A DNA stretch of 42,988 nt from Pseudobdellovibrionaceae bacterium (lineage in GTDB: Bacteria > Bdellovibrionota > Bdellovibrionia > Bdellovibrionales > Bdellovibrionaceae), in assembly GCA_013359135.1 (NCBI GenBank), contig JABWCN010000036.1:1-42988 (forward strand), read 5' to 3'. The notes beneath the pieces were generated by a model that made no database searches, was not told where the DNA came from, and was given only the letters and a program-made list of their open reading frames with translations. Positions within the stretch are counted from its first letter, which is position 1; each line of letters starts with the position of its first letter. A program made the position numbers and the translations under genes. Below are positions 21,314 through 41,065 of the stretch, piece by piece.

Positions 21314-22540
21314 ATGTTTATGAAATTCATTTATGTTATTTTCTCTTTTTTACTTTTGAATTTATTTTTAATTTCGTGTGGACCTGTTAAGTTTTCATCT
21401 AGTTCGAACACTGAGGCTACAGGGACAGGTACAGATACCACTCAAGGAACTGGAACTGGTAATGGAACAGACAACAATAATAACTCTACAACTAGTACTA
21501 AAAATGTCAAAACAACCTATACAGTAACATCACAACAGAACAAAGTAGATATTATTCTGATTTTAGATAATTCTAGCTCTATGGCAGAAGATAATTCTAA
21601 ATTAGCAAGTCGCTTGACGACATTTGTATCTCAACTTGAAAGTTCTGCAATTGACTGGCAGATGTGTATGACGGTCACTTCATATATCCCTTATAATGGA
21701 TCCAATTATTGGGGAATGTCGATAAACTGGTCTGATTATAATGGATCTAAAAGATGGTTATTAAATAAAGGCACTTCAAACTTATCTACCATTTTTCAAA
21801 ACACAATTAATAACAACTTAGCTACAGGTGGATCCGGCACTAATGACGAGCGTGGTATTAAGGCAGCTTACTGGCATGTAAACTACAAAGATTATAATTC
21901 TTGTTATCGCAATGGTGCAGCTTTAGCTTATATTTTTATTTCTGACGAAGATGAAAGAAGCATTGGTGGCAAAGAATCAGAAAAATACTATTCTGACGAA
22001 ACAACTCTACTAGAGCAAGATGACCTGCCTAGCAGCCTTGTTGACAAAATCAAAGCCTCACTTGGGAATAATATCAGGTTAAGAGCTAACTCTATTATCG
22101 TTAAACCTGAAGATAGCAATTGTCTGCAAACTCAAGATAACCAAGGAACTAAAGCTCACTATGGAACTCTTTATAAAGAACTCTCTACATTAACGGGAGG
22201 TGGCGTTGGTTCCATCTGTGATACCGATTACGCTAATAACTTAAACTACTTCAATGAAGTGATTAATGACTCTTTAAGCTCTATGGCTCTTGAATGTAAC
22301 CCTGTAGGAAATAATGTTTCAGTGACAATAACTCCAACAAATTCAGCTATAACTTCCACAGTCCAAGGGCAGAGTTTAGTTTTTAATCCTAGTGTACCGT
22401 CTGGGTCGACTATTGTAGCTGAATACAAGTGCGCAATTTCAACTAACAATCGATTACCTAATTCTGTACCAGAAGAAATATCTATTTTATCTAAACTGTA
22501 CACTTGGATTGTAGCACCTATCTTAGGTTTATTTAAATAA
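21314..22540 (+). CDS. VWA-domain lipoprotein
   Basis: 408 residues. The signal peptide ends in lipobox LISC (Cys22). A Gly/Thr/Asn-rich linker (about 35-62) leads to a von Willebrand A-like domain with the MIDAS start DNSSSM (85-90; D-x-S-x-S). A later IFISDEDERS (about 214-223) is a candidate for the domain's acidic metal-binding loop. Paired cysteines and a short hydrophobic C-terminus (LYTWIVAPILGLF) follow. VWA lipoproteins usually mediate protein-protein adhesion at the cell surface; the partner is unknown. AAAGG lies 5 nt before the chosen ATG. It is a single-gene unit. Confidence 0.78.
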   Translation: MFMKFIYVIFSFLLLNLFLISCGPVKFSSSSNTEATGTGTDTTQGTGTGNGTDNNNNSTTSTKNVKTTYTVTSQQNKVDIILILDNSSSMAEDNSKLASRLTTFVSQLESSAIDWQMCMTVTSYIPYNGSNYWGMSINWSDYNGSKRWLLNKGTSNLSTIFQNTINNNLATGGSGTNDERGIKAAYWHVNYKDYNSCYRNGAALAYIFISDEDERSIGGKESEKYYSDETTLLEQDDLPSSLVDKIKASLGNNIRLRANSIIVKPEDSNCLQTQDNQGTKAHYGTLYKELSTLTGGGVGSICDTDYANNLNYFNEVINDSLSSMALECNPVGNNVSVTITPTNSAITSTVQGQSLVFNPSVPSGSTIVAEYKCAISTNNRLPNSVPEEISILSKLYTWIVAPILGLFK

Positions 22541-24891: not shown

Positions 24892-25245
24892 CTATGCCCC
24901 CAAAATTTTTAAAATTTTATCACAAACTTTTACAATATCCTCGAATGGCTTGGCTATAAATAAATCTACTCTTTTTAAAATTTGAGTTTCAGTCTCTGTA
25001 TCTCCAATGTATGCAGATATTAAGCAAACTTTTGCCTTGGAAAAAGGTTTCACTTTATCTAACAACTGCTCTGCATTCAAACCAGGCATAATAAAATCAA
25101 GAATAACCAAATCTGGCTGAAAATCGATCCACTGTTTAAGGCCATCTGTACCATCGATAGCTACTCTTACCTCATGAGATTTAGAAAAAAATCTAGAAAA
25201 AGTTCTTCCAATGAGAACTTCATCGTCAATGATTAGTATTTTCAT
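24892..25245 (-). CDS. Single-domain response regulator (receiver only)
   Basis: 117 residues, a complete receiver domain with no output domain. The acidic pocket is D7-D8, the phospho-acceptor is D50 (LVILD50), the switch Ser is S77 and the conserved Lys is K99 (IAKP). Its start overlaps the sensor kinase gene by 20 nt, making it the likely phosphorylation partner. The target could be a motility or relay protein; nothing in the sequence says which. Confidence 0.9.
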   Translation of the reverse strand: MKILIIDDEVLIGRTFSRFFSKSHEVRVAIDGTDGLKQWIDFQPDLVILDFIMPGLNAEQLLDKVKPFSKAKVCLISAYIGDTETETQILKRVDLFIAKPFEDIVKVCDKILKILGA

Positions 25246-27268
25246 AGATGGGCCATTCTATAATAAAAGTAGCTCCCTGAGGATGATTAGGTTCAAATCT
25301 AATACTTCCTTGAGAATTTTCAACAACACTTTTCACTATACTCAAGCCCAGCCCTGTGCCTTCTCCTTCAGGCTTAGTTGTAAAGAAGGGTTCAAAAATA
25401 AGACTTTGATTTTCCAATGCAATTCCCTCACCAGAGTCAGAAATTTTAAGTGAAATCTTTTTCTTACTTACATCAGTACTCACCAAAATAGTTCCTTTTT
25501 CTTTCATCGCCTGAGTTGCATTTTGAATCAAATTAAAAATAACATGCTGAACCAGAGATGGATCCGCTAAAATTTCTACGTTCTGACTTGCTAATTGTAG
25601 ATCTAATTGATGACTACGTAATGGGACTTTCAAAAGTGGAATTGTTTTTTGAATAATTTCATCCAAATTCATAGCAACAAAATTGGTATTTTTTGGATTT
25701 GAAAACTCAATAAAATTATTCATTACCTTAAAACAACGTTCCGTCGCCTTCTCTATTTCTACTAAATCTTTTGCTGCAGTCGTTTCAGCTGCCACCTGAG
25801 TTTTAAGATATTGAACCATAGAACGTATTCCAGTCAGAGGATTATTTAACTCATGAGATAGATGACCTGCTAGTCGTCCAATAGACAGCATTTTTTCAGT
25901 TTGCAAAAGACGAGAGTATAGTTTTTTCTCTTGAGTTCTATCAATGTAATTATGAACTACCGAGCGTAAACTAAAAGTAGACTTCATAGGGTAACTGTAG
26001 AGTTCAAAGTTTGACTTGGTTATATTTAAATCTCGTTTTTGCGCTGAGTTTGACTCTATAGTTTCTTTCAGTGGACAGCCCAAGCACACCGAAGTCCTCT
26101 GGGCAAACATTTCGTAACATTTTAATGAGTGAAGATTTTTTTCAAAAAATGAGTTTGACCTTAATACCTGATAGTTTTCATCAATAATTGCAATTGGCTC
26201 ATCTATCAAATCAAAAGTCTTCTCCCAACGATTAGAGAACTGAACCATAGTAATTTCTAAAAAAAGTTTTTCATGAGCCATATGAATAACTTCAATACGA
26301 TCATGTAGAAATTCTTCAAAATCAACTTTGTGAATATCTGAAAGTTGATTCTCAAAACCAATAAAACTCTCATTACTAAGCTGAGATAACTTTAATTTTC
26401 CAAAAGGACGGGAGAGGGAATTTGCCAGTTGAATTGAAATTAAACTATGAATGATTTTATCATTTAATGATTCTTCACTCAATGCATGGGAAAATGGAAT
26501 CTCTTTCCATTGAAAATAATTTTTTGAAAAAAGAACTTTAAATAATTTATCAGTTTTCTTTTGAAATAATAAAATTTCACCAATTTCGTGAAAAACTTTG
26601 AATTCATTTTTAATAACCCGTAAAAAATCTTCAAAAGAATTTACCAAGGCCATATCTTTTATAAATCTTAAAATGACTCGTTCTTTTTTTAGCTTTTTGT
26701 CTTCTTCTTTAGTTGAATGAGAAATATCTTGTGTTTTTTCATTAACAATAACTTCTTGTTTTAGAATAAGTTCATCGAGCTGTTTTTTTTGAACAGAAAT
26801 ATCTTTAATAATTTTATTTTTAATATGTTTAGCATTTATTTTTTTAAAAATAGGCGCAAGCATAGCTACAGAAATTTTACTAAAATCTTCAAATGAAATG
26901 ATTTTTTTTACATTCCATTCGTTAATTACGACTTTCAAATTAATATCTTCATCATGATGAATAAGAACAACTTCTATCTTATGCTTTATCTCACTGATCA
27001 TTTTGATGAATTCTTCTGAATAATGTTTTTCATAAATCAAGAACAAGACATCAACTTTTTCTAGTTCAGAATAGAACTGCCGTTGAGGATCATCTTGGAG
27101 CGATGATAATACCGTTCGATAACTAACTTGACTAACAAAGTGAAAAACATCTGAACTATTTTTTTGAGCCCTAAAAGCTTCAATTTGCCATTCGGCCCCT
27201 AGAAGTAAAAGACGGTATGATTTTAAATTCTCTACTTCCATTGGCATTATCAACTGTTTTCTCTCCAT
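25226..27268 (-). CDS. Sensor histidine kinase with divergent N-terminal receiver-like and PAS regions
   Basis: 680 residues with no membrane helices, so cytoplasmic. Residues 18-130 look like a receiver-type Rossmann fold without the phospho-acceptor pocket (RLLLLGAE; VDVLFLIY; VVLIHHDE). Coiled coil runs to about 200, then a GAF-like region (200-330) and a PAS-like region (345-430) containing CLGC (C395, C398). The kinase core has phospho-acceptor H472 (HLSHELNNPLTG), N583 in IQNATQAM, DSGEGI (611-616) and GEGTGLGLS. The last part resembles NtrB-type kinases. The start overlaps the preceding gene by 89 nt; later in-frame ATGs at 27247 and 27241 shorten this but lack clear ribosome-binding sites. 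Confidence 0.88.
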   Translation of the reverse strand: MERKQLIMPMEVENLKSYRLLLLGAEWQIEAFRAQKNSSDVFHFVSQVSYRTVLSSLQDDPQRQFYSELEKVDVLFLIYEKHYSEEFIKMISEIKHKIEVVLIHHDEDINLKVVINEWNVKKIISFEDFSKISVAMLAPIFKKINAKHIKNKIIKDISVQKKQLDELILKQEVIVNEKTQDISHSTKEEDKKLKKERVILRFIKDMALVNSFEDFLRVIKNEFKVFHEIGEILLFQKKTDKLFKVLFSKNYFQWKEIPFSHALSEESLNDKIIHSLISIQLANSLSRPFGKLKLSQLSNESFIGFENQLSDIHKVDFEEFLHDRIEVIHMAHEKLFLEITMVQFSNRWEKTFDLIDEPIAIIDENYQVLRSNSFFEKNLHSLKCYEMFAQRTSVCLGCPLKETIESNSAQKRDLNITKSNFELYSYPMKSTFSLRSVVHNYIDRTQEKKLYSRLLQTEKMLSIGRLAGHLSHELNNPLTGIRSMVQYLKTQVAAETTAAKDLVEIEKATERCFKVMNNFIEFSNPKNTNFVAMNLDEIIQKTIPLLKVPLRSHQLDLQLASQNVEILADPSLVQHVIFNLIQNATQAMKEKGTILVSTDVSKKKISLKISDSGEGIALENQSLIFEPFFTTKPEGEGTGLGLSIVKSVVENSQGSIRFEPNHPQGATFIIEWPIYENTNH

Positions 27269-27869
27269 TTAAAACACGTAACAGGTCAATTAAAAGCTTT
27301 TCCCATTCAACAAGACTTGAAACCAGTTCATATTCTATGATATCAGCTAAACAAACAAAATCTTTTTTTTCAACTGCTAGTAAAGCCTCTTCTAACATCG
27401 CTTTAGTTTTGTCCTCAGCTTTGCAAAGCCCAGAAAGACCCGCCGCAGCAGAGTCACCTAATAAGTTTTTTATAGAAATGATGCTCGAGATTAAATAATC
27501 ATAATTTTCGATTAAAACTTGAATTTTTGAGAATACACTTTGAACGCCAGAGAACCTTATCTGCCCTGCAATCAGCTCTGTATTTTGAATCATTTCAGGA
27601 AAAGCATCAACCCACCCCTGAATCACATCTATAATCAGCTCATTAATATTTTCAGATAAGTATTCTAATGTATCTACCTCTGAAATGGTCATTGAGAAAT
27701 AACTTTCCTCTTCCATTTCACCAAGTTCTCTGCCATTAACGATATACTGACATACCACTTGATTTGACTTTTTTAAATCTGCTTCTATATCTGAAAACAC
27801 CTGTTGCAGAGTTGTATTAGTCGCGTAAAAATCAAATAGTTTGCTACCATTTATCTTGAATCTATCCAT
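27180..27869 (-). CDS. Unknown 229-residue protein in the flagellar glycosylation region
   Basis: No family recognised with confidence. The N-terminal 75 residues appear beta-rich (CQYIVNGRELGEMEEES), the rest is helical and acidic (NELIIDVIQGWVDAFPEMIQ). It has no signal peptide and no membrane helix, so is probably cytoplasmic. It overlaps the upstream glycosyltransferase by 8 nt and the downstream kinase by 89 nt in another frame, so all three should be expressed together. It could be a partner of the kinase or a flagellin-modification accessory protein; this is inference from position alone. Confidence 0.7.
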   Translation of the reverse strand: MDRFKINGSKLFDFYATNTTLQQVFSDIEADLKKSNQVVCQYIVNGRELGEMEEESYFSMTISEVDTLEYLSENINELIIDVIQGWVDAFPEMIQNTELIAGQIRFSGVQSVFSKIQVLIENYDYLISSIISIKNLLGDSAAAGLSGLCKAEDKTKAMLEEALLAVEKKDFVCLADIIEYELVSSLVEWEKLLIDLLRVLNGEKTVDNANGSREFKIIPSFTSRGRMAN

Positions 27870-29307
27870 GATTCTTTTCCTCTTCCTGAGTGTTTGTGTC
27901 TTCTAATAAGTAAGGTCGCAATAGAAGCTTTAGTTCATTATGAACTTTCAAATAAGATTCGACAATTTTATTTTCGGTTAATGGGGGTACTTTTATTTTT
28001 TCAGCTAGACACCAGTCTATATAAATACTGGCCTTTGAGCTTATTCTAGCGATTCCACGCATGACAATATCTTGCGCCTCTAAAATTTTTACAAACTTAT
28101 CTGTTCCCTCGCTTTGGCAAGCCAACAAAATTTCGATAATATGATTATTAATGTCATTAAGTCTTTCTATAGCTCTAAAAAAAACAAGATCCTCAGTCAT
28201 AGGGAAAGCCTCTCCCAAATAAATAGCTTTGACTAGTGACCATTCGAAATCGTTTACTAAATTAAATCTTAAACTATAACAAGGGATCCCTTGAATATAA
28301 GAAATGAGTTGAGGTAAAGGTCTCTGTACTAGAACTGACTTAATCGCTTGAGCTACCTCTGTTGACTCAACATTTGCAGGCAAAATATTAAGCAATACGT
28401 AACTACCTTTAACTCTAGGACCTGTTTCCCAAAACTTTACCGACTCAAATGACAAGTTTAAGCATGGCGTTTGGGTCAAATTACACATATGCAAAAAAAC
28501 ACTATCTCCACCTACATGTAATGTAGCATTTTTAAGAATAGGAAATACTTCTTTCAAAGATGTTTTACCTACAAGATTAATAATATCTTTATGTGAATTA
28601 AATGCAAAAATTTCCTCTGTATACTTTTCTTCCGCCTTTGAACCTAGCAAAACCACCTTATATCCTAGATCAAAACTAAGAAGTTTCTTTATCACTCTAG
28701 ACCAAATAAATGGTGACAATGTCTTGTCTTCAGAACTAGCTCCTAGTTGCAAAGTTATATAATTATCTTCAATAGAACCTGTTAAACTAAAATCGTGAGG
28801 ATAGTTAAAGTCAGAAGCAATTAAATCAACATCACAAAGACTTGCAAAAACATCAATCAAGTGAAATCTGTTATATTTATCAATTCCAACTTGTGAATAA
28901 AAATAGGCAGAAATTGAATCCTGAATTGAGAATGAAGAATCTGAAAATCTATTATAGCCAAAAACTTGAGTATCACTTTCAGATAAATAATAAGCTAAAT
29001 AACTCGAAAGAGGTGAAAATGTAAGATTGTAAATTGTATCATAGTTTTTATTTTTCAAAGAAACTAGCTCTCGCTCTAAAAAATCTGTTGGATTTTCTAT
29101 ATTATTCAATGCAAAAGAAATAATATCTTTGCTATTCAATGAAAAACATTGATCAACTTCAGCTAACCCTTGAGTTGCTTCATGAAATTTTTCGCGAACT
29201 ATTATATCAATTTCAGCAGAGGGAAATTTTCTTTTCAAGGCCCTAACAATGGGCCAAGACATATAGATATCACCTAGTCTTGCTAGTTGTATTATCAATA
29301 TTTTCAT
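27862..29307 (-). CDS. GT9-family (heptosyltransferase-like) glycosyltransferase with C-terminal extension
   Basis: 481 residues. The first 330 resemble ADP-heptose:LPS heptosyltransferases: the N-terminal motif ILIIQLARLGDIYMSWPIVR and the sugar-nucleotide site VGGDSVFLHMCN (265-276; the usual form is GGDTGPMH). The family cysteine cluster is absent here. The final 150 residues are helical and unrecognised, making it longer than standard GT9 enzymes. With a second GT9 enzyme and FliD/FliS genes nearby, a flagellin or surface glycan role is plausible. AAGGAG precedes the start. Confidence 0.82.
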   Translation of the reverse strand: MKILIIQLARLGDIYMSWPIVRALKRKFPSAEIDIIVREKFHEATQGLAEVDQCFSLNSKDIISFALNNIENPTDFLERELVSLKNKNYDTIYNLTFSPLSSYLAYYLSESDTQVFGYNRFSDSSFSIQDSISAYFYSQVGIDKYNRFHLIDVFASLCDVDLIASDFNYPHDFSLTGSIEDNYITLQLGASSEDKTLSPFIWSRVIKKLLSFDLGYKVVLLGSKAEEKYTEEIFAFNSHKDIINLVGKTSLKEVFPILKNATLHVGGDSVFLHMCNLTQTPCLNLSFESVKFWETGPRVKGSYVLLNILPANVESTEVAQAIKSVLVQRPLPQLISYIQGIPCYSLRFNLVNDFEWSLVKAIYLGEAFPMTEDLVFFRAIERLNDINNHIIEILLACQSEGTDKFVKILEAQDIVMRGIARISSKASIYIDWCLAEKIKVPPLTENKIVESYLKVHNELKLLLRPYLLEDTNTQEEEKNHG

Positions 29308-29467
29308 GGTTTTTTTGCTCCTTAAACAATTCTAATAAAATTTTTTGCAACTGATTAAGTCTACTATAACCTTCTTCAATAAATGTTTTCTGAGACTGTT
29401 CTAATAGAGTTTTTTCTAATTTTTGAAACTCTATATGCAAATCTCTTTGGACTTTTTCTTTATCCAT
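29270..29467 (-). CDS. 65-residue coiled-coil protein between two glycosyltransferases
   Basis: A short charged helix (MDKEKVQRDLHIEFQKLEKT, then a Gln/Leu/Glu-rich helix). AAGGGG lies 5 nt before its ATG. It overlaps both neighbouring GT9 genes (37 nt upstream, 38 nt downstream), and no other frame is used in the 123 nt between them. Its length and coiled-coil nature suggest an adaptor, but there is no recognisable family. The ribosome-binding site and the otherwise empty stretch are the main support. Confidence 0.62.
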   Translation of the reverse strand: MDKEKVQRDLHIEFQKLEKTLLEQSQKTFIEEGYSRLNQLQKILLELFKEQKNHENIDNTTSKTR

Positions 29468-30528
29468 AAATCCCCTTTTTGAAACTTCAAATTTTTTTCT
29501 GATACTAAAGTTTTAAATGTAAATTGATTACAAAGTTGTTTTTTCTCTAACCAAAATGAAACAAAATCATAAATAGATTTCTCAGTTATCATATCTTGAC
29601 AAAGATTTCTTTCAAACTGACATGCACTATGATGCGAACAAGGGCGACATTCACTATTTGAAGAAAGAATAAAATTACCTTCTTGATAGCCAGAGGTTTT
29701 TTTTGGATGACTGCTGCCAACAGATATTTCTAAAGTTGGAGTCCTTGAATAGACAGCTAGATGTTTTATGCTTGTATCTAAAGTTACTAGTAAATTACTT
29801 TCTTCTAAAAGTCTTTTTGATTCATGAAAATTGGCTACAAGCATATCTGACTTAGCAAAATAGAATGTCATTTTCTTGAAATCATCTTTCCCTAGTAAAA
29901 TCTTAAATTTTTTTGTCGGAAACTTTTCTTTTAACAATTCAAGTGTTTTTTTCCATTTGATCAAATCCAAATTTTTTTTGCTATCACTCGTTTGAATTTG
30001 AAAAAGAACTAAGTCATGATTATTTATACTTGCTGAATGTATATCAATATTTACTTTTAAAAGTTTTTTTAAAAGATCCAGATAGTGAATATCATTATGA
30101 GGATCAAGCATTTGGGTGATGAATTTTAAATTTAAATCGTTATTGTGCGACTCAAACTGATCCCAATTATAAACACCTACCTTATAAGGGGAACTTAATA
30201 GAGATAATATTTTTGCTGAAAATTTTTGATATGTTAAATCTATAACTTTATCAAAATTCATTTCATTCAACTGAGTAATAATTTTTTTGCCATGAAGAAG
30301 AGGATAAAGTAATGGTTGCTCAAAACTATTAATCTGCTTTTGCATCGTATATCTGTAAAAATAGTGAAACTCTATCCAAGGAAATAGCTTACAAAACTCG
30401 TAAGGTATTAGGTCATATACTAAAATATGTATTTCAGCTTTAGGGTTTTGTTGGCGATACCCTTCCAAAAGTCTAATATGCATCAACAGATCACCAATTC
30501 TTAAAAGAGACAAAAACAGAACTTTCAT
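29431..30528 (-). CDS. GT9-family glycosyltransferase with four-cysteine cluster
   Basis: 365 residues. Opening MKVLFLSLLRIGDLLMHIRL matches the GT9 N-terminal fold. LVTLDTSIKHLAVYS (about 247-261) replaces the usual nucleotide-sugar motif GGDTGPMHLA. Cys294, Cys297, Cys303 and Cys310 form a C-x2-C-x5-C-x6-C cluster like the one seen in many heptosyltransferases, including enzymes that modify autotransporters and bind a metal there. It overlaps the methyltransferase-like gene by 4 nt. A donor such as an ADP-heptose is inference from the family. Confidence 0.84.
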   Translation of the reverse strand: MKVLFLSLLRIGDLLMHIRLLEGYRQQNPKAEIHILVYDLIPYEFCKLFPWIEFHYFYRYTMQKQINSFEQPLLYPLLHGKKIITQLNEMNFDKVIDLTYQKFSAKILSLLSSPYKVGVYNWDQFESHNNDLNLKFITQMLDPHNDIHYLDLLKKLLKVNIDIHSASINNHDLVLFQIQTSDSKKNLDLIKWKKTLELLKEKFPTKKFKILLGKDDFKKMTFYFAKSDMLVANFHESKRLLEESNLLVTLDTSIKHLAVYSRTPTLEISVGSSHPKKTSGYQEGNFILSSNSECRPCSHHSACQFERNLCQDMITEKSIYDFVSFWLEKKQLCNQFTFKTLVSEKNLKFQKGDLWIKKKSKEICI

Positions 30529-31139
30529 TTAATTATCTCATCAAAAAGGTGTAATATTTTTCCATCAAAGCTACTAAAAGAATCTGTTGCATTTAGCAAA
30601 TTTTTTAAAGTTAAAAAGTTCTTTTCTTCATGTAACACATTCCAGTTAAAATCTAATTCCAAACTCATGCTCTTCCACTGATCTTGTAAAGCTTTCGCTT
30701 CCCTTTGAGTCATCTTTAGTAATAAATTAGAGTATAATTCTTCTTTCCCTTGCCATCCTGGACGAAATGGCATCAAAGTAGGCATTTTTTCCAAAAGAAG
30801 TTTATAAATATTCTTAACCGGATGAAATTGTGTCTGAATATCTACAGAATCAAAATGAATAAACTCTATCTGTGAATTTTTAAACTCATTAGAAAGCGCC
30901 TCGATAAGATCTAAATTACAATCGATCACTGTGATTCTTTTATTTGGATAGAGCAAATGCAAATACTTGATATGATACCCACCTCCTGCACCTAAAATGC
31001 AAAACTCGGAAACATTTTTAATTTCAAAAAGTTTAATCCAATTTTGAGCTTCCGACAAAGGTCTTTGAAATGAGCATAAAGCCTTTCCTTGAAAGAAAGG
31101 AATGGCTTTACCATTTTTATTATTTATGAACTGTAGCAT
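30525..31139 (-). CDS. Rossmann-fold (SAM-type or MAF-like) protein
   Basis: 204 residues. The segment CILGAGGGYHIKYLHLLYP followed by RITVIDCN gives a G-x-G-x-x-G nucleotide-binding loop with a downstream acidic residue, as in SAM-dependent enzymes. The same pattern, with GYH after the glycines, appears in the N-terminal part of motility-associated (MAF/DUF115) proteins implicated in flagellin glycosylation. No catalytic motif of a specific methyltransferase is visible, so both readings stay open. It overlaps the GT9 gene by 4 nt and the TPR gene by 20 nt. Confidence 0.65.
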   Translation of the reverse strand: MLQFINNKNGKAIPFFQGKALCSFQRPLSEAQNWIKLFEIKNVSEFCILGAGGGYHIKYLHLLYPNKRITVIDCNLDLIEALSNEFKNSQIEFIHFDSVDIQTQFHPVKNIYKLLLEKMPTLMPFRPGWQGKEELYSNLLLKMTQREAKALQDQWKSMSLELDFNWNVLHEEKNFLTLKNLLNATDSFSSFDGKILHLFDEIIK

Positions 31140-32130
31140 CAGTTTGCCCTTTCAAATAATCAGATAGTTGTTTGAAAATCTTACTATTTTCTTTATTCTC
31201 AGGATTCCATAGTAGATTTTTGTAACTCTCTAAATAAGCATTTTGATAATCACCCGATTTGATTAAAGAATTAATTAATAATAAAGAAATTTCTTCATCA
31301 AAGTTTTCAATCTCTAAATACTTAATTAAGTATTGCTGACACTGACTATTCATTTCTGAAGAATAGACATTTTGTGCCAGTAAGATTAGAGCTGTCTTAT
31401 TCATTGGGTTATTATCCAATGCTTTTACTAAATTTCCCCAACTAAGTTCCTTATCACCAAATTCTAAATGTACCATTGCTAATCCCACCCATGCTTTGTC
31501 ATTTTTGTTGTTTAATTCAATAGCTTTACGAAAACAGAATAGACTTTTTTCTATGTCTTTTTTTTGATACTCAAGAACACCTATATTAATAAGAAGTACA
31601 TCAGATGAGTTGTTCAGCTGATAAGCTTTAAAAAAATATTCCTCAGCTAAATCAAACTCTCTTTGTTTTAAATAAATATTGGCTATGTTTTTGTATATTT
31701 CAAAGAGTATCTTATCATCTTCAATGAACTGAGATAGGCAATCAAAATACAACTTAAATGCATCATCTTCTTTTTCGTTAAGATAGTATATTTTTGCCAA
31801 CTCTAAAGTTCTTAACAATGAATAATTGTACTGTTGATTATTCAAAATGACAATTTCGGCTTCAGTCAAACGATTAAATTTAACTAAAATATTGTAAACT
31901 TCATCTAAAATAATCTCATTTTTTGAATCTCTATTACATGCTTCTTGAAGTAAAATAAGTGCTAAATTCAGTTCGCCATTTTTTTCTAAAACTTTAGCAT
32001 TTAGAAAAAGGGTCGCGATTTCTGTACTAGAGAATTTTTTTTTGTTTATCTTGACTGCAGTTTTTGAAATATTGTCATCCACGCTCAGTGTTTGACTGAT
32101 ATTTGAAACTGGATTCATTTCTTGTAACAA
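31120..32130 (-). CDS. TPR protein of the flagellar glycosylation region
   Basis: 336 residues. The TTG at 32130 is preferred over the ATG at 32118 because AGGAG lies 6 nt before the TTG. Residues 35-320 are tetratricopeptide repeats (AEEYFFKAYQLNNSSDVLLI; FRKAIELNNKNDKAWVGLAM). No catalytic domain is present, so it is probably a protein-interaction scaffold. TPR proteins often accompany protein glycosyltransferases, here encoded in the same run. Confidence 0.82.
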   Translation of the reverse strand: MLQEMNPVSNISQTLSVDDNISKTAVKINKKKFSSTEIATLFLNAKVLEKNGELNLALILLQEACNRDSKNEIILDEVYNILVKFNRLTEAEIVILNNQQYNYSLLRTLELAKIYYLNEKEDDAFKLYFDCLSQFIEDDKILFEIYKNIANIYLKQREFDLAEEYFFKAYQLNNSSDVLLINIGVLEYQKKDIEKSLFCFRKAIELNNKNDKAWVGLAMVHLEFGDKELSWGNLVKALDNNPMNKTALILLAQNVYSSEMNSQCQQYLIKYLEIENFDEEISLLLINSLIKSGDYQNAYLESYKNLLWNPENKENSKIFKQLSDYLKGQTDATVHK

Positions 32131-32211
32131 CGATCTCTCCTAGCTAAAAGTTTGAAATTAATTTTTAAAAAAATTTAATTTCTTATCTTCTAACTATAAG
32201 GAGCAAGTTAA

Positions 32212-32328
32212 ATGCCATTTTTAAATGCTTTCTCTTTGAAAAGAATGCGATCGCCTGCAGTTTCCTTGACAAACCCTATGAAGGGCTTGTCAATTTTCTT
32301 ACTAGACTTTAATCATACTTCTTCTTGA
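32212..32328 (+). other. Candidate 38-codon ORF or small RNA on the plus strand
   Basis: AAGGAG lies 8 nt before an ATG that opens 38 codons (MPFLNAFSLKRMRSPAVS...), ending TGA at 32326, overlapping the end of the FliT-like gene by 16 nt. A plus-oriented hairpin with U-tract lies inside the reading frame, so the transcript may stop before the stop codon. Surrounding genes are all on the minus strand. A small protein, a regulatory RNA or a fortuitous match are all possible. Confidence 0.3.
32266..32300 (+). terminator. Plus-strand intrinsic terminator candidate in a minus-strand gene run
   Basis: TTGACAA-A-CCCT (32266-32277) pairs with AGGG-C-TTGTCAA (32282-32293) around a 4-nt loop, with one A/C mismatch. 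TTTTCTT (32294-32300) follows on the plus strand. In the minus-strand RNA the mismatch becomes a G-U pair, but no U-run follows, so the orientation looks plus. Confidence 0.45.
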
Positions 32329-32723
32329 TTAGCAAACTGAGGTACCTTGTAGGCCGAAATAACTTTTTGGCCTTTTTTTAGATCTTTCAAATCTCTAATT
32401 ATCTGATTTTTAGCTGCCTCGATACAAGATAAAATAGCGACATCCTGCTCGATGATTTTTTGTACGAATAAATCTTTATCGCTCAGATGCTTTTTTAAGC
32501 TTTCTAACTGATAGGCCGTGCCATGTTCTGATTGAGAAGATATATGAAGTAGCTCACGATCTATATATTTTAGTATCTCTAAAATACTTTCTCTTTGGTT
32601 GTAAAACTCGTTAATCTCATTATAATTATCATTCAAAAAATTCTGAAGTGATGTCTCATTAACTGTATAAAATTTCTCAAGATAATGATTTTTTTGCTCC
32701 ATGAGTTCTAAAACTCTTTTCAT
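32313..32723 (-). CDS. FliT/FlgN-like flagellar export chaperone
   Basis: 136 residues, all helical and charged, with no signal or membrane segment. The pattern (LMEQKNHYLEKFYTVNETSL at the start; LKDLKKGQKVISAYK near the end) and size fit the FlgN/FliT chaperone group. It is directly downstream of fliS (22 nt). FliT proteins bind FliD, encoded two genes up. The family is poorly conserved, so the call rests partly on context. Confidence 0.68.
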   Translation of the reverse strand: MKRVLELMEQKNHYLEKFYTVNETSLQNFLNDNYNEINEFYNQRESILEILKYIDRELLHISSQSEHGTAYQLESLKKHLSDKDLFVQKIIEQDVAILSCIEAAKNQIIRDLKDLKKGQKVISAYKVPQFANQEEV

Positions 32724-32745: not shown

Positions 32746-33138
32746 TTACTTTTGTGATTCCTGATCTTTTTTTAGTTTTTCAACAGCCCCTATCCATCCT
32801 TGATAGAGATTCTCTAAAACTTTTAAATTATTTTTTAATGGTTCAACTTGATTTTTAAAGTTTGCTTGAGTGTACTGATCCATGAGATACACATACAGGG
32901 CCTCTAGTTTCTGAGAAATTTCACCACCCACTTTATGGTCTAGTGTATTGTTTAATTCCATAATAATATCGTAAGCTCTTCCTATGTTATACCCTTTATC
33001 TGCTATTTTTTTTTCATCCATCGCTTTAATAGCAAGTTTTGTAAACTTTATGGCGCCTTCATATAGCATTAAAAGAATTTTTTCTTTGCTTGCCGTTTGA
33101 ACTGAATTTGTCTTATACTTCTGATATGCGTTTTTCAT
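32746..33138 (-). CDS. fliS: FliS, flagellin export chaperone
   Basis: 130 residues. The opening NAYQKYKTNSVQTASKEKIL followed by LMLYEGAIKFTKLA is the FliS signature. FliS binds the flagellin C-terminus and prevents polymerisation before export. It lies 63 nt after fliD with an AGGA element near the ATG. Confidence 0.96.
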   Translation of the reverse strand: MKNAYQKYKTNSVQTASKEKILLMLYEGAIKFTKLAIKAMDEKKIADKGYNIGRAYDIIMELNNTLDHKVGGEISQKLEALYVYLMDQYTQANFKNQVEPLKNNLKVLENLYQGWIGAVEKLKKDQESQK

Positions 33139-33201: not shown

Positions 33202-34572
33202 TTATCCCTTAAGTCCAGCGCCAATTCCTTGGACCGCAGCTCCCTGACTTTGAATTGCTGACATTTTTGACTCTAGATCAGCAAATTTTTTTCTTAAAGA
33301 ATCTTCTTTTTTTTCTAATTGTCGCTCTTTTTGTTCAATTTGAGTGTTATATCTATTTATTTTTTCTTGAATTCCTTTTTTTCTATTAGCAAGAACACCA
33401 AACGAAGGGTTTTGCATATTTGAAAGTTCTCTTTTAAGATTATTGACAAAACCAGTAGTTAAGCCATCTCCTTTAAAAAACTCTGCAACTGAAGCGGGAT
33501 TTGAATTTAAGACTTTATTAAACTTCTCCTGATTGAAGTTTAAAGTTCCGTTTCTATTAAATTCGATACCTAATTGATTCATTGTCTGGATGTCAGAGTT
33601 AATGCCAAATTGAGGAGCCATAATTATTCGACGTAAGACATTCTCTACTTGTCTAGTTAGCGAATCACCCCCTAATGGTCCCAATGATTCTTTACCGCTA
33701 GCTCCTTTTTGTAACTTTTGTTGATTCTGTAAAAATGAAAGTGCACCATTATAAGCATCTACAAAAGCTTTTATTTTACCACTGATTGCTTCCATATTTT
33801 CTTTTACAAAAACTCGTATCTCTCTTCCTGGAGATGCTTGTTTCAAATTTAAAGTAACTCCTGGAATCAAATCATTGACCACATTATCGGGAACCTCAAC
33901 TTCAAAGCCATCCATTTTTAACTTCGCGTTTTGAGCAGGACGAGCTTCATCAAAAAACATGTCCTGATCTCCATCTAGCATGTAGATTGTAGGGAATTTA
34001 ATTTGTTTATCATCACCGGTTTTTAAGCCAGACACTATTAGTCTAAAAGGATTCTCTCGATCTTTTTTGTCTTCTATAACGGTTGCTCGCATACCAATAT
34101 TTGCTGAATTAATTTGAGCAGCAACACCACTCAGTGTAGAGTTTTCTCCTTTGATATAAACTTCTTTTAGTCCTTGAGAAGTTTCAAATTTTATATAGCC
34201 AACACCCATCTGAGTTTTATCTTTATCTGGAAACCCATTGGAAATAGCTCCCGGTTTTTGAGCCAACTGCATGACTTCAATAGAGTACTCACCATTCACC
34301 ACAGCACCAGGGTCAACTACCCCATCAATGGTGTTTGGATCACCAGAGATTAACTTCGTATCTATAAAACCTTTCGTATTTGTCAGTTCGCCAAGATTCT
34401 TAGTTATCTCGCTGACCTTTGTTTCTAGATCAGTAACTATTTTTAGAACATCTTCTTGTTTATTTTTTTTAGTTTCAATTTGCTTTAATGGAACGCGCTC
34501 AGCCTCAACCAACTGGTCGACGATATTTGGCGGTAATCCTGAGGCCATGCCGGTCATCCTAATCGCTGGCAA
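33202..34572 (-). CDS. fliD: FliD, flagellar filament cap
   Basis: 456 residues, normal length. The start is a TTG at 34572 with AAGGA 6 nt upstream; the in-frame ATG five codons later has no spacing for a ribosome-binding site. The N-terminus (MTGMASGLPPNIVDQLVEAE) matches the FliD D0 region. The C-terminus ends in a long coiled coil (RYNTQIEQKERQLEKKEDSL). It caps the filament and folds incoming flagellin. It is the first gene of a long minus-strand run, opposite lysC. Confidence 0.95.
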   Translation of the reverse strand: MPAIRMTGMASGLPPNIVDQLVEAERVPLKQIETKKNKQEDVLKIVTDLETKVSEITKNLGELTNTKGFIDTKLISGDPNTIDGVVDPGAVVNGEYSIEVMQLAQKPGAISNGFPDKDKTQMGVGYIKFETSQGLKEVYIKGENSTLSGVAAQINSANIGMRATVIEDKKDRENPFRLIVSGLKTGDDKQIKFPTIYMLDGDQDMFFDEARPAQNAKLKMDGFEVEVPDNVVNDLIPGVTLNLKQASPGREIRVFVKENMEAISGKIKAFVDAYNGALSFLQNQQKLQKGASGKESLGPLGGDSLTRQVENVLRRIIMAPQFGINSDIQTMNQLGIEFNRNGTLNFNQEKFNKVLNSNPASVAEFFKGDGLTTGFVNNLKRELSNMQNPSFGVLANRKKGIQEKINRYNTQIEQKERQLEKKEDSLRKKFADLESKMSAIQSQGAAVQGIGAGLKG

Positions 34573-34686: not shown

Positions 34687-35937
34687 ATGTCTATCATTGT
34701 AAAAAAATTTGGTGGAGCCACAGTCTCTACCCCTGAAAAAATTAAGGAAATTGCCTTAAAAATGAAGATGGAAATGAGTCCAAATGACCATTTAGTCATT
34801 GTTGTTTCCGCTATGGGGAAAACCACCAACAATTTGATTGAGCTAGCCCATCAAGTGTCTAGTCATCCCTCTCGAAGAGAAATGGATATGCTTCTGTCGG
34901 TAGGGGAAAGAATTTCCATGTCTCTTTTGTCTATGGCACTCCTTGATCTTGGCCTAGAAGCCATCAGTTTTACAGGAAGCCAAGCCGGAATTTTGACGAC
35001 AGAATCCCACGAAAATGCTTTTGTTGTTAATATCAAACCACAGCGACTACAGGAAGAACTTAAAAAAAATAAAATTATTATCCTAGCTGGATTCCAAGGA
35101 GTCAGTGAGCAAAAAAAAGAAATTACAACACTCGGTCGTGGTGGCAGTGATACATCTGCTGTTGCGATGTCAGCAGCTTTAAATGCCAAACACTGTGAGA
35201 TTCTAAAAGATGTTCCTTCTATTTTTTCAGCAGATCCAAATCTAATTCCCGAATCAAAACCAATTTCGACTCTTTACTATGAGCCACTAATGGAAATGAC
35301 ATTTTGGGGAGCTAAGGTTTTACACTATCGCTCGGTAGAATTAGCTGCTGTTAAAAAAGTTAAAGTTTATATTGGACCATCAAGAGCACAAAATCAAATA
35401 AAAGGCACTTGGGTTACTCAGTTTGCCTCAAAGGAAATGGAAATGACATTTACCAAGAACACTAAAATCGAAAAGTCTGACAACAATAGCAACTCTTTTG
35501 AAAGATCGGCCTTACTGTCTATTAATGTTCATAAAAAAGTGTTACAAATCAAAATTAAAAGTAAAACAATACAAGAAGCTCTTTCAATTTTAAAAAAAGA
35601 ATTTGTCGATAAAGAAATCATATTTCCACAGATGCTTCACATAGATAATTCTGAAGATAAGGAACAAGTGACACTTATCCTTACAGCTCCTAATGAGGTT
35701 GTTGAACAAATATTAAATACTTCGTTTTCTTTTTATGTCGATGGAAATATATTTGCTACCATAACCATTACAGGTACAGGATTTTTAGAGTTTGAAATTC
35801 AAGATAAAATTCTAAATTCCTTAAAATCTTCTGATGTTGAACTATTCAAAGTATTTTACAGTGCTTTTAGTATTACACTGCTAATAGATAGTAAATGTGC
35901 AGACCAATCAGTCAAAATTTTGCATACTTTAATATAG
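34687..35937 (+). CDS. lysC: Aspartate kinase
   Basis: 416 residues. The kinase domain carries KFGGATVS (7-14; consensus KFGGTSV), VIVVSAMGKTTNNLIEL and TTLGRGGSDTSAVAMSAAL. The C-terminal 140 residues are the tandem ACT regulatory domain, which is more divergent than the kinase domain. It makes aspartyl phosphate for lysine, methionine and threonine synthesis. No Shine-Dalgarno sequence precedes the ATG, consistent with leaderless translation. It is flanked by flagellar and exported-protein genes on the other strand. Confidence 0.93.
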   Translation: MSIIVKKFGGATVSTPEKIKEIALKMKMEMSPNDHLVIVVSAMGKTTNNLIELAHQVSSHPSRREMDMLLSVGERISMSLLSMALLDLGLEAISFTGSQAGILTTESHENAFVVNIKPQRLQEELKKNKIIILAGFQGVSEQKKEITTLGRGGSDTSAVAMSAALNAKHCEILKDVPSIFSADPNLIPESKPISTLYYEPLMEMTFWGAKVLHYRSVELAAVKKVKVYIGPSRAQNQIKGTWVTQFASKEMEMTFTKNTKIEKSDNNSNSFERSALLSINVHKKVLQIKIKSKTIQEALSILKKEFVDKEIIFPQMLHIDNSEDKEQVTLILTAPNEVVEQILNTSFSFYVDGNIFATITITGTGFLEFEIQDKILNSLKSSDVELFKVFYSAFSITLLIDSKCADQSVKILHTLI

Positions 35938-36001
35938 TGTAAACCAAAAATGAATAGCAAAATAAGACAATAAAAAAACAATCAGTTTACAACAATATTT
36001 T

Positions 36002-37822
36002 TTAAAAAGGTTCATAAGCCCTGAATCTATTTTGTTTAGGATCGCCAAAGTCAATAATTTCTAAAGACTTTCTTGTCGCATTCACTGACTTTTGAGCTAA
36101 GATATCACCTAAATCTACCAACTGAGCTGGTAAAAGACTAATACTCCAATTCAATTTTACTGGAATCAATATTCCTTTTTTTTCATAGAAAAAATCGTTT
36201 AAATATTTTAAAGTGTACTTATCCCACGTTAGAAAAGAAAAAATGTTTTTTTCATTTTGATTAAACTTATTTAGTGTTTTTCTAATTTGTTGTATGGCAA
36301 ATTGTCCAGGATCATCAGACTCTAGATCTTTTTTTAATGTAAAATGTACAGATTTATATTGAATTTGTTTTTCTGACAGCAAATCTTCATCACAAGCTTT
36401 CAAATAAATAACTTGTAAATAAGATGTCATAGACGAGTAGGGAAATCCTCCAATAAAAATAGCACTAAAATCTGTATACTTGCTATCAGAAAGATCTTGT
36501 AAAACAAACTTTTTGTATTGATCCATAATAGGGTCATAAATTTTTCTGACACGAAGATCTGAAGAAGCAAGACGTCCAGACAACTCATTTAGTAGCTGAG
36601 GTTCTCGAATACTTGGATTCATAGCTGCCCAACGTTGGTCAACTACAGCTATTACATATTTCTTAATAAAAGGCTCTTCCTGCAAAACCAAATGTTGATA
36701 TGCTTTTGAATTTAATATCACTCGCGCAGTCTCTTCTGTCATAAAAACAACTGCTCTTAGTTCGGAAAAATCAACTTTTGAGTTAGTCTGTAAATCTTCT
36801 TTCAAAATCTGGTATCTAGGATAAGTTTTAGCCAAGCTAATTGTAAAAAATCCAGGTAGTGGTTTTTCAAATAAAACTTGCTGCAAAGAATTTGTCATTT
36901 TCAGACCCAAATCATTAGGTAGAGAAGTGGTTCCCCATCTTCTGAAAAAATCTGCATAGGTAGAAATTTTTTTCTTAATTTCAGTTTCAATAACTTTTTT
37001 CATTTGATCCTCTAGCATCTCCATGATTTTTTTCATGATTCTAGATAGATCCTTATAACTTCTTGGATTATGTACTTGCTCAAAACTCAAAGCTCTAGGA
37101 ATATCGTATACATATCTCAAACTTGAAAAGAATTCTAATGCATTTTCATCCTGAGAGGCTATTTTTCGTAAGCTTATAAACTCAGGTAAATTTTTTACCT
37201 CTACTTGCAGTTTATTAAAATCTATATTCCTAACAAATAAAAGCATTCTGCCAAAGTCTGAAAGAACCACATTTCCGTCCATTTGATGTATCCATAACTT
37301 ATTTGGACGAGATTCTAATAAAGGAATCAATTCTGTAATAGGTTTACTACCCTTCAAAGCTAATGATTTAATCTGTTCTCCTGCCACTCTTACAAATGTA
37401 GAAATATTTTCACTAGGAGTAAAATCTGTAGCTCTAGATACAAATTGAATTAAAATTTGTAACTTACTGAGTTCATCTATTGATAGTAAATTATCTTTCC
37501 ATTTCAATGCTCTAATGGAAGGATTATTTAGAGCTGCATCCAAAAGCATAGCCACACCAGAACCAGAGCTTCCTCCAGCAAAAGATGAAATCATCACTTT
37601 AACATCAACATTTTTATTATTTTCAATTTTTTTTGCTTCTTCTAGAGTGGCTTTTAGAGACTCTGCTAACCATGCTATGGTTGCAGCCCAATTATAGCCA
37701 TTGCCTTGTGCTGTTGCAGAATAAAGAATGACAACCTCTTCTTTGCTATGGACTTTACAGCAAGAAAAAAAAATACCAACTAAAACATTAGTAAATATTA
37801 AAATTTTAAAAGTAGATTTCAT
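36002..37822 (-). CDS. Exported protein with patatin-like nucleophile elbow, unknown function
   Basis: 606 residues from the ATG at 37822 (MKSTFKILIF), which has AAAGG upstream and starts a signal peptide ending near FFSC (possible lipobox, Cys21). An ATG at 37876 would bury the signal peptide behind 18 residues. After the signal comes a beta strand and glycine turn, then SSFAGGSSGSGVAMLLDAAL. GGSSG fits G-x-S-x-G (Ser85) as in patatin-like lipases, where a DG motif supplies the Asp; MDGNVV is a candidate. The rest is not recognised. A lipase role is possible but unproven; no classic oxyanion-hole motif is obvious. Confidence 0.6.
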   Translation of the reverse strand: MKSTFKILIFTNVLVGIFFSCCKVHSKEEVVILYSATAQGNGYNWAATIAWLAESLKATLEEAKKIENNKNVDVKVMISSFAGGSSGSGVAMLLDAALNNPSIRALKWKDNLLSIDELSKLQILIQFVSRATDFTPSENISTFVRVAGEQIKSLALKGSKPITELIPLLESRPNKLWIHQMDGNVVLSDFGRMLLFVRNIDFNKLQVEVKNLPEFISLRKIASQDENALEFFSSLRYVYDIPRALSFEQVHNPRSYKDLSRIMKKIMEMLEDQMKKVIETEIKKKISTYADFFRRWGTTSLPNDLGLKMTNSLQQVLFEKPLPGFFTISLAKTYPRYQILKEDLQTNSKVDFSELRAVVFMTEETARVILNSKAYQHLVLQEEPFIKKYVIAVVDQRWAAMNPSIREPQLLNELSGRLASSDLRVRKIYDPIMDQYKKFVLQDLSDSKYTDFSAIFIGGFPYSSMTSYLQVIYLKACDEDLLSEKQIQYKSVHFTLKKDLESDDPGQFAIQQIRKTLNKFNQNEKNIFSFLTWDKYTLKYLNDFFYEKKGILIPVKLNWSISLLPAQLVDLGDILAQKSVNATRKSLEIIDFGDPKQNRFRAYEPF

Positions 37823-37887
37823 GGAGCTAAAACCTTTATTCAAAACAACTGGGCCACTTATAACACTGTTAAACATGTAAATGCTAT

Positions 37888-37932
37888 TGAAAAATAGCAG
37901 AAGACATACCCTATCAATAAGATATCTTCTGC
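37888..37932 (-). terminator. Intrinsic terminator of the Cys/Gly-rich protein gene
   Basis: On the minus strand GCAGAAGATA pairs with a TCTTCTGC-containing arm (37925-37932 and 37897-37904, extended with one bulge). It is followed directly by TATTTTTC. It lies about 40 nt after the stop at 37974. Confidence 0.65.
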
Positions 37933-37973
37933 CAAAGGTTCACCTCGGATAAGTCGTCTGAACAGACTTCTAA

Positions 37974-39815: not shown

Positions 39816-39818
39816 CAC

Positions 39819-40231: not shown

Positions 40232-41065
40232 TTAACCAATCAACTTCATAGCCGCAGCAGGAATTTGATTAGCTTGTGCCAATGTAGCTACTGAAGCCTG
40301 CAGAAGGATGTTGTTTCTTGTTAACTCACTACTTGCCTGAGCCACATCTGTATCACGTATACGAGAATTTGCAGCTGATAAGTTCTCATGCATAGTTTGA
40401 GTATTATCAAACGTCGCTTGTAACCTATTTTGAATAGCACCTAAATTCGCTCGAAAACCATTCACTGTAGATTGTGCTTCATCTAATACCGACAATGATT
40501 CCTGTGCGCCTTCTTTCGTTGAAAAATCAAAACCATCTATTCCTAAATTAGATGCTGTTGCATCAGACATACTTGAATCAAACTTAATTCTATCCGCTTC
40601 AGGATTATTATTAATACCTACCTGAAATTCATATACTTTACCATTACCGTTGATTAGCTCTTGATTACCAAATTTAGTTGTTTGAGCAATACGTTGAACC
40701 TCTGACTTTAGCTGTTGTACCTCTTTATCCAAAAGCCCTCTCTCTTTATCAGAGACAGAATCTGATGAAGATTGAATACCCAACTCTCTCATACGAGTTA
40801 AGATATTTGAAATTTCTCCAAGGCCCCCCTCAGCAGTTTGAATGAGCGATATTCCATCATTAGAGTTTCTACCTGCCTGTGCCACACTTCTTAAATTCGA
40901 TTTTAAGTTTTCACTAATGGCTAATCCCGCAGCATCATCAGATGATTTGGTTATTCTTGATCCTGATGCTAATTGTGTAAATGACTTTTGAATCTCTCTT
41001 TGTGATCCAGTCATTGACTTTTGTGCACTCAGTGACGCTACGTTTGTTGAAATTCTCATTCCCAT
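40232..41065 (-). CDS. fliC: Flagellin, flagellar filament subunit
   Basis: 277 residues, a short flagellin made of the D0/D1 core with little variable region. The N-terminus (RISTNVASLSAQKSM; DDAAGLAISENLKSNLRS) and C-terminus (RNNILLQASVATLAQANQIP, ending KLIG) are fully conserved. The ATG at 41065 has AGGAGG 5 nt upstream. It is monocistronic, driven by a sigma-28 promoter about 200 nt upstream, and depends on FliS for export and FliD for assembly. Ser/Thr- and Asn-rich D1 stretches could be glycosylated. Confidence 0.98.
   Translation of the reverse strand: MGMRISTNVASLSAQKSMTGSQREIQKSFTQLASGSRITKSSDDAAGLAISENLKSNLRSVAQAGRNSNDGISLIQTAEGGLGEISNILTRMRELGIQSSSDSVSDKERGLLDKEVQQLKSEVQRIAQTTKFGNQELINGNGKVYEFQVGINNNPEADRIKFDSSMSDATASNLGIDGFDFSTKEGAQESLSVLDEAQSTVNGFRANLGAIQNRLQATFDNTQTMHENLSAANSRIRDTDVAQASSELTRNNILLQASVATLAQANQIPAAAMKLIG

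Follow-up and report, generated by a model that had tools for sequence, protein, structure and literature searches.

A candidate flagellar glycosylation module with a predicted sigma-54 promoter alongside fliDST in Bdellovibrionota

A block of eight ORFs alongside fliDST in a Pseudobdellovibrionaceae bacterium is probably a dedicated flagellar glycosylation module with its own sigma-54 promoter, as judged from its gene families and their conservation. The window, that is, the whole 42,988-nucleotide stretch of DNA analysed, carries the block as co-directional ORFs of the minus strand, in the order TPR, Rossmann, GT9b, cc65, GT9a, p229, histidine kinase (HK) and response regulator (RR), with fliD, fliS and a FliT-like gene immediately upstream:

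40232..41065, minus strand: flagellin, 277 aa, the probable substrate (Flagellin_N 4.5e-37, Flagellin_C 1.9e-21; adjoins fliD in relatives)
33202..34572, minus strand: fliD, flagellar cap, upstream context (Pfam FliD_C 1e-53, FliD_N 2e-15; linkage)
32746..33138, minus strand: fliS, flagellin chaperone, upstream context (Pfam FliS 1.5e-37)
32313..32723, minus strand: FliT-like gene, upstream context (Pfam FliT 2e-5, below the curated cut-off; position conserved)
32266..32293, minus strand: palindrome TTGACAAGCCC-TTCATA-GGGTTTGTCAA, candidate activator site (TGAC-N8..22-GTCA; strong stem)
32202..32217, minus strand: predicted sigma-54 promoter TGGCATTTAACTTGCT (carried by 48 of 56 TPR genes)
31120..32130, minus strand: TPR protein, candidate flagellin or chaperone adaptor (Pfam TPR matches; conserved)
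30525..31139, minus strand: predicted stand-alone Maf N-terminal (Rossmann) domain protein, MafN (PF20157 in orthologues; hhalign to Maf N-domain)
29431..30528, minus strand: GT9b glycosyltransferase with Cys4 motif CRPCSHHSACQFERNLC (PF01075 1e-7)
29270..29467, minus strand: cc65, 65-aa coiled coil between GT9b and GT9a (conserved small ORF)
27862..29307, minus strand: GT9a, 481 aa, helical C-terminal domain, without Cys4 (PF01075 2e-14)
27180..27869, minus strand: p229, 229 aa, small alpha/beta domain and four-helix bundle (alignment; model pLDDT 86)
25226..27268, minus strand: histidine kinase, start codon uncertain (HATPase_c 1e-23, HisKA 1e-10)
24892..25245, minus strand: receiver-only response regulator (Response_reg 2.6e-12)

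The genes named in the preliminary description are all present at their coordinates, in a single direction on the minus strand, and the tight overlap it reported for the TPR, Rossmann, two GT9 and coiled-coil genes, followed by kinase and receiver, is borne out by overlaps of 4 to 89 nt between all neighbouring ORF pairs from TPR to RR. It overlooked, however, an eighth gene, p229 (27180-27869), which is overlapped by the HK gene by 89 nt and is conserved to the same degree as the other cluster genes. A comparison of the p229 model with known folds returned generic four-helix bundles only and no specific match. In the case of cc65, residues E46, E50 and Q51 are invariant in the orthologue alignment.

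The cluster does lie downstream of fliD, fliS and the FliT-like gene, as had been described, with a gap of 182 nt between fliT and TPR. Since this gap holds a predicted sigma-54 promoter, the TPR-to-RR block appears to be its own transcription unit, apart from fliT. The promoter is near-perfect ahead of TPR in 48 of 56 loci. Of the background windows, 0.8% reach a sigma-54 score of at least 10, no other gene of the cluster is preceded by such a site, and the TGAC-N8..22-GTCA arrangement occurs above the promoter in 21 of those 48 loci versus 19 of 1860 background windows. A riboswitch or other RNA in the gap was considered and rejected, as no Rfam family was matched and the stem is the palindrome above the sigma-54 promoter. 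A scan for sigma-28 promoters gave 69 matches against 53 expected, barely above chance, and pointed to no specific site.

A possible link to two-component signalling, also part of the preliminary description, holds to the extent that HK and RR belong to the sigma-54-driven unit, but its specificity for glycosylation does not. In the genus of G007, HK and RR stay with TPR while all glycosylation genes are missing, and because the pair persists where those genes are lost, it is not a specific glycosylation readout. HK and RR would thus not be confined to glycosylation, but would act for the flagellum or for the TPR protein. The closest NCBIfam families of the kinase are AtoS and ZraS.

Conservation of the linkage was surveyed in the phylum Bdellovibrionota, where GT9a lies 0.9-6.8 kb from fliS (median 4.05 kb) in 77 of the 82 genomes compared; the proposed fliDS-GT9 neighbourhood is therefore conserved, and the linkage of GT9a to fliS is more than chance. 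Within the order, FliS is found in all 55 genomes with GT9a, and GT9a is absent from all seven genomes that lack FliS (Fisher 2.8e-5 for joint occurrence, not tree-corrected). Gene order is kept throughout the order and reduced forms occur throughout the phylum; for instance, in the split genome G022, GT9b remains with fliDST-TPR-MafN. MafN, GT9b, cc65, GT9a and p229 are jointly absent in one genus, and the absence of the module from one genus that retains its flagellar genes means that it is dispensable there. No fliS relatives were found in the viral contigs searched.

The Rossmann/MAF-like protein of the preliminary description was rightly guessed, and appears to be a stand-alone Maf N-domain. 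PF20157 is matched by 13 of 25 orthologues (best 3.5e-6); the window copy itself falls below the PF20157 threshold, and the assignment rests on the family profile, which aligns to the Maf N-domain with hhalign E-values of 3e-9 to 3e-10, with null controls. In a whole-genome Maf_N search of 241 genomes, the short-ORF matches, 16 in number, are this cluster's gene. The central Maf transferase domain, PF01973, is absent from the bacterium's own genome and from 39 of 40 genomes searched, and no canonical Maf was found in 39 of 40 relatives. Neither p229 nor the C-terminal extensions of the GT9 proteins could be taken as a Maf C-terminal domain, the hhalign comparisons being not significant. An active SAM methyltransferase, by which the module would methylate as well as glycosylate flagellin, is suggested by weak Pfam methyltransferase matches and by a GxGxG motif and an acidic position following strand 2, both retained in most orthologues. 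This reading is quite unlikely, as the Maf N-domain is matched at E 2.6e-10 versus 0.04 for the methyltransferase RsmD (hhalign), and bona fide Mafs score no higher on PF20157 than the best orthologues.

Two different GT9 proteins had been described, one with a cysteine cluster and one without but extended, and these are confirmed as GT9b and GT9a, which score 31.9 and 53.8 bits, respectively, against PF01075 (Pfam cut-off 22 bits). Both open directly with the GT-B fold. GT9b matches WaaC at E 7.5e-20 in a profile comparison, the GT9a model matches WaaC/WaaF with a Z of 27, and the C-terminal extension of GT9a is helical (model helices 353-466, mean pLDDT 91). In the orthologue alignments D13, K195 and D268 of GT9a are invariant and D13, K185, D251 and H256 of GT9b are conserved; the Asp, Lys and Asp of each protein align to the WaaC active site (Asp13, Lys192 and Asp261). 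That this triad is invariant or nearly so in 24 and 21 diverged orthologues argues against GT9a and GT9b being catalytically idle scaffolds for flagellin export or for the histidine kinase. A structural role for the fold has a precedent in a GT9-fold plant NDH subunit (Z of 21 to the GT9a model), and f6 genomes carry a 450-aa protein without a Pfam match in place of the GT9s, yet such a role is very unlikely here.

The metal-type cysteine cluster, in contrast to its earlier emphasis, is ordinary for GT9 and was rejected as a special feature, because three other GT9 genes elsewhere in the same genome carry Cys4; GT9a is the odd one. LPS-type GT9 genes are located elsewhere in this genome. With WaaC and WaaF the cluster enzymes share fold and donor-site residues, but they adjoin fliDST, GT9a has its helical extension, and their scores lie far under the curated equivalog cut-offs for LPS heptosyltransferases I, II and III (TIGR02193/02195/02201; best 69.5 vs 185.3 bits).

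The GT9 family is that of the LPS heptosyltransferases and Bdellovibrio flagella are sheathed, so the two enzymes could instead make a special LPS for the sheath, the fliDS linkage coupling sheath and filament production. Sheath and outer-membrane LPS of B. bacteriovorus do differ (PMC7175336), but what is reported to differ is the fatty acids rather than the sugars of the core. LPS core synthesis is not known to involve either a Maf N-domain or a TPR protein, the genome has further GT9 genes at other sites (three of them with Cys4), and f18, a sister family without GT9a, has a full-length Maf; sheath LPS is thus an unlikely product. In f18 genomes L221 and L224 this Maf lies directly upstream of flagellin-fliD-fliS.

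Conserved in Bdellovibrio-like bacteria, the operon follows the cap and chaperone genes and pairs a detached Maf domain with two GT9 proteins, and so very likely acts in flagellum glycosylation. Gene families and comparative genomics give good support to the dedicated flagellin or cap glycosylation proposed earlier, with the substrate an extrapolation: the genes are linked to fliDST and absent together with FliS, a Maf-N domain is present, the GT9a-less sister family has a full-length Maf where flagellin and fliDS lie, and LPS-type GT9 genes are sited elsewhere. Modification of FliD, hook-associated proteins or a chaperone rather than flagellin would fit the nearest genes, which are fliD, fliS and fliT, with the window flagellin ~8 kb away from the block on its upstream side. 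In many relatives, however, the flagellin gene immediately precedes fliD, and Maf homology points to flagellin, making such a target improbable.

The best reading is a cytoplasmic module for flagellin (or cap), with GT9 catalytic in place of Maf's own domain. Tentatively, and at somewhat less than even odds, this would be a split Maf, in which the recruitment domain has parted from its catalytic domain and now works with two GT-B enzymes of the heptosyltransferase family, so that flagellin would be O-glycosylated by GT9 (probably with heptose) throughout Bdellovibrionota, with sigma-54 and a two-component system in control. Maf (PF20157 plus PF01973) has an N-terminal Rossmann domain homologous to the cluster protein, and both types occupy flagellin/fliD/fliS loci within one phylum, whereas the cluster replaces the PF01973 domain with separate GT9 (GT-B) proteins.

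Substrate, sugar, order of action and adaptor roles we infer as follows. The TPR protein and/or p229 would hold flagellin (or FliD) in the cytoplasm, where Maf acts prior to FliS binding (PMC4065374). Assembly of GT9b and GT9a, the two GT-B enzymes, would fall to the detached Maf N-domain together with the coiled coil; the enzymes would transfer one or two sugars from the nucleotide-sugar pool to Ser/Thr, and FliS would then carry the modified subunit to export. In FlmG of Caulobacter, a flagellin-binding TPR domain is likewise joined to a GT-B domain (PMC7591256), both systems presumably acting on cytoplasmic flagellin, but FlmG is one polypeptide, whereas TPR and GT-B are separate ORFs in the mapped loci here, the catalytic part is GT9 and a Maf N-domain protein is added. 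The BAHT enzymes (TibC, Aah) have a GT9-like fold and glycosylate proteins with ADP-heptose; TibC carries a Cys4 motif as in GT9b, although at Cys339/342/358/370 rather than as C-x2-C-x5-C-x6-C, and the N-terminal beta-barrel of BAHT is missing from the cluster GT9s, whose substrate is presumably no autotransporter.

ADP-heptose drawn from LPS synthesis may be the donor, since NeuB, the synthase for the nonulosonic acid donors of Maf, is mostly absent; a nonulosonic donor was rejected on finding a full-strength NeuB match in just 4 of 40 relatives and none in the own genome. The HldE kinase family is found in 40 of 40 relatives, but is universal because of LPS and so gives no pointer to the donor. 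Flagellin Ser/Thr positions showed no clear difference between genomes with and without the module.

The literature search found no paper on glycosylated flagellin in Bdellovibrio and none on genes downstream of fliDST; flagellin glycosylation is not known for the phylum in the literature searched. If true, the module would represent an undescribed flagellin glycosylation route in a phylum of predatory bacteria with a sheathed flagellum, in which the recruiting Maf-N domain has been put to use with another family of catalytic enzymes. B. bacteriovorus HD100, with bd0611 as fliD and bd0612 as fliS (PMC9140294), offers a ready genetic test of the module, and the predicted sigma-54 promoter makes its regulation directly testable.

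The tight overlap of the block and its position behind fliD, fliS and a FliT-like gene, both noted in the preliminary description, are borne out by eight consecutively overlapping minus-strand ORFs that run from the TPR gene (32130) to the receiver gene (24892) on contig 80 of a 3.84-Mb genome, the relatives of which are Bdellovibrionales MAGs. An additional ORF, absent from the first list, encodes the 229-aa protein p229 (27180-27869). As called, the histidine kinase (HK) ORF shares 89 nt (27180-27268) with p229, and the true HK start codon is probably further downstream; the receiver (RR) is without an output domain. At 21314-22540 on the plus strand, a conserved gene encodes a lipoprotein-like product that has a stretch rich in Thr and Gly and weakly matches VWA; in many relatives, too, this gene points towards the end of the block. 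Flagellin and fliD are not adjacent in the window genus: between them (34687-39818) lie a homologue of aspartate kinase and two large proteins that have no clear Pfam family. In other genera, flagellin is immediately upstream of fliD.

Across this phylum, the scope of our whole-genome mapping, 43 mapped loci give the order fliD-fliS-fliT-TPR-MafN-GT9b-cc65-GT9a-p229-HK-RR-rsmD-coaD-aminotransferase, where MafN is the Rossmann protein, GT9a and GT9b are the two glycosyltransferases and cc65 is a 65-aa coiled coil. Many of these loci carry flagellin and a ~125-aa gene ahead of fliD. Other forms are fliD-S-T-MafN-GT9-GT9-p229-HK-RR (family f17) and fliD-S-T-TPR-GT9-p229 (f16 and f26). GT9a was matched at full coverage in most of 40 relatives from the order. 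The survey of fliDS-GT9 neighbourhoods that had been proposed as a check finds the linkage conserved, with GT9a 0.9-6.8 kb from fliS (median 4.05 kb) on one contig in 77 of the 82 genomes with listed positions; in the remaining five, fragmented assemblies place the two genes on separate contigs. Within the order, FliS is present in all 55 GT9a-positive genomes and missing from 7 of 19 GT9a-negative ones (Fisher 2.8e-5, without tree correction). One genome without FliS and GT9a, G027, yet retains matches to an HldE-family kinase and an ordinary GT9, which argues that the module accompanies the flagellum rather than LPS.

In the genus of genome G007, loci readable throughout contain fliDST-TPR-HK-RR, and MafN, GT9b, cc65, GT9a and p229 are jointly missing. 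This joint absence identifies the five as the glycosylation core, without which TPR, HK and RR can stand. In the case of G022, the block is divided over two contigs, GT9b and MafN remaining with fliDST-TPR. Several genera carry a ~400-aa gene between fliT and TPR (L048:9971-11164; same place in L045, L046, L049, L051, L059, L062 and L066); the L048 copy is lipoprotein-like, has no Pfam match and, with its CxxCH motif, is perhaps haem-binding. In family f6, a 450-aa protein occupies the GT9b/GT9a place before p229 (L092:10617-11981, L094:7285-8637); the L092 copy has no Pfam match, and judged by eye the protein looks like a degenerate GT9 with a helical tail.

The 182-nt fliT-TPR gap contains a -24/-12 promoter, TGGCATTTAACTTGCT, within the following feature:

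32202-32293, minus strand: sigma-54 promoter with upstream palindrome, before TPR, conserved in the order

With the start codon left loose and a score of at least 9 of 11, the site precedes 48 of 56 TPR genes. A stricter 260-nt test (score at least 10) retains 67% of TPR genes versus 0.8% of background windows, and in this test none of the other cluster genes has such an upstream score. A TGAC...GTCA palindrome lies above the promoter in 21 of the 48, versus 1% of background windows. The genus that lacks the glycosylation genes has the promoter too, and thus the regulated unit is TPR-...-HK-RR. The HK resembles AtoS and ZraS, which are partners of sigma-54 activators.

The Rossmann protein, previously described as MAF-like, is by its family profile a Maf N-domain, an assignment that rests on the family, the window copy alone falling below the Pfam threshold. 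Pfam Maf_flag10_N matches 13 of 25 orthologues (best 3.5e-6), and a six-frame search of 241 genomes returned 26 matches, comprising 10 long ORFs (535-710 aa) and 16 short ones (197-266 aa). The short ORFs are the block's Maf-N gene and, where positions are listed, adjoin fliS or GT9 partners. Those of the long ORFs that were inspected proved to be genuine Mafs, with PF01973 matches of 1e-31 to 1e-36 and PF20157 scores of their own of only 2.5e-5 to 4.6e-7. The Rossmann-protein profile matches these Mafs at 96-97% probability (E 3e-9 to 3e-10, 118-165 columns), and nothing was found with reversed and shuffled profiles, RsmD or other Maf domains as controls.

By profile, both GT9 enzymes match WaaC/WaaF, and the fold of GT9a, which has a helical C-terminal domain, matches WaaC/WaaF with Z 27 over ~300 residues and TibC with Z 17. 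Catalytic Asp13 and the donor-site Lys and Asp positions, important in WaaC, are conserved in both families. The cysteine cluster noted earlier in one of the two enzymes is nothing unusual, the Cys4 motif being standard in GT9. Many GT9b orthologues span 500-600 aa and include a tail missing from the window genus. Since HldE-family kinases are universal in the genomes examined and NeuB is rare, ADP-heptose or a common hexose donor is favoured over nonulosonic acids.

In Aeromonas, flagellin is modified in the cytoplasm by Maf1 and then taken over by a FliS homologue (PMC4065374), and in FlmG a TPR domain binds flagellin while a GT-B domain carries out transfer (PMC7591256). By analogy with these systems, the likeliest working order is that flagellin would be recruited by TPR and/or Maf-N, modified by the GT9 pair and handed over to FliS. 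In this scheme we infer how flagellin is recruited, which sugar is added and where, and what p229 and cc65 do. For the HD100 genes downstream of bd0612 (fliS), no report was found in the open-licence literature.

Family f18 genomes with a full-length Maf have FliS and no GT9a. Ahead of the flagellin-adjacent maf lies a GNAT acetyltransferase gene (L221:1719-2723, L224:7340-8380), the product of which perhaps modifies the Maf sugar. One f17 genome, G060, carries both the GT9 module and, elsewhere, a 548-aa Maf_N-matching ORF. At the f18 loci L221 and L224, Maf is immediately upstream of flagellin, a ~135-aa gene, fliD and fliS, and this placement in a family lacking GT9a indicates that the GT9 module and Maf fill the same niche in sister families.
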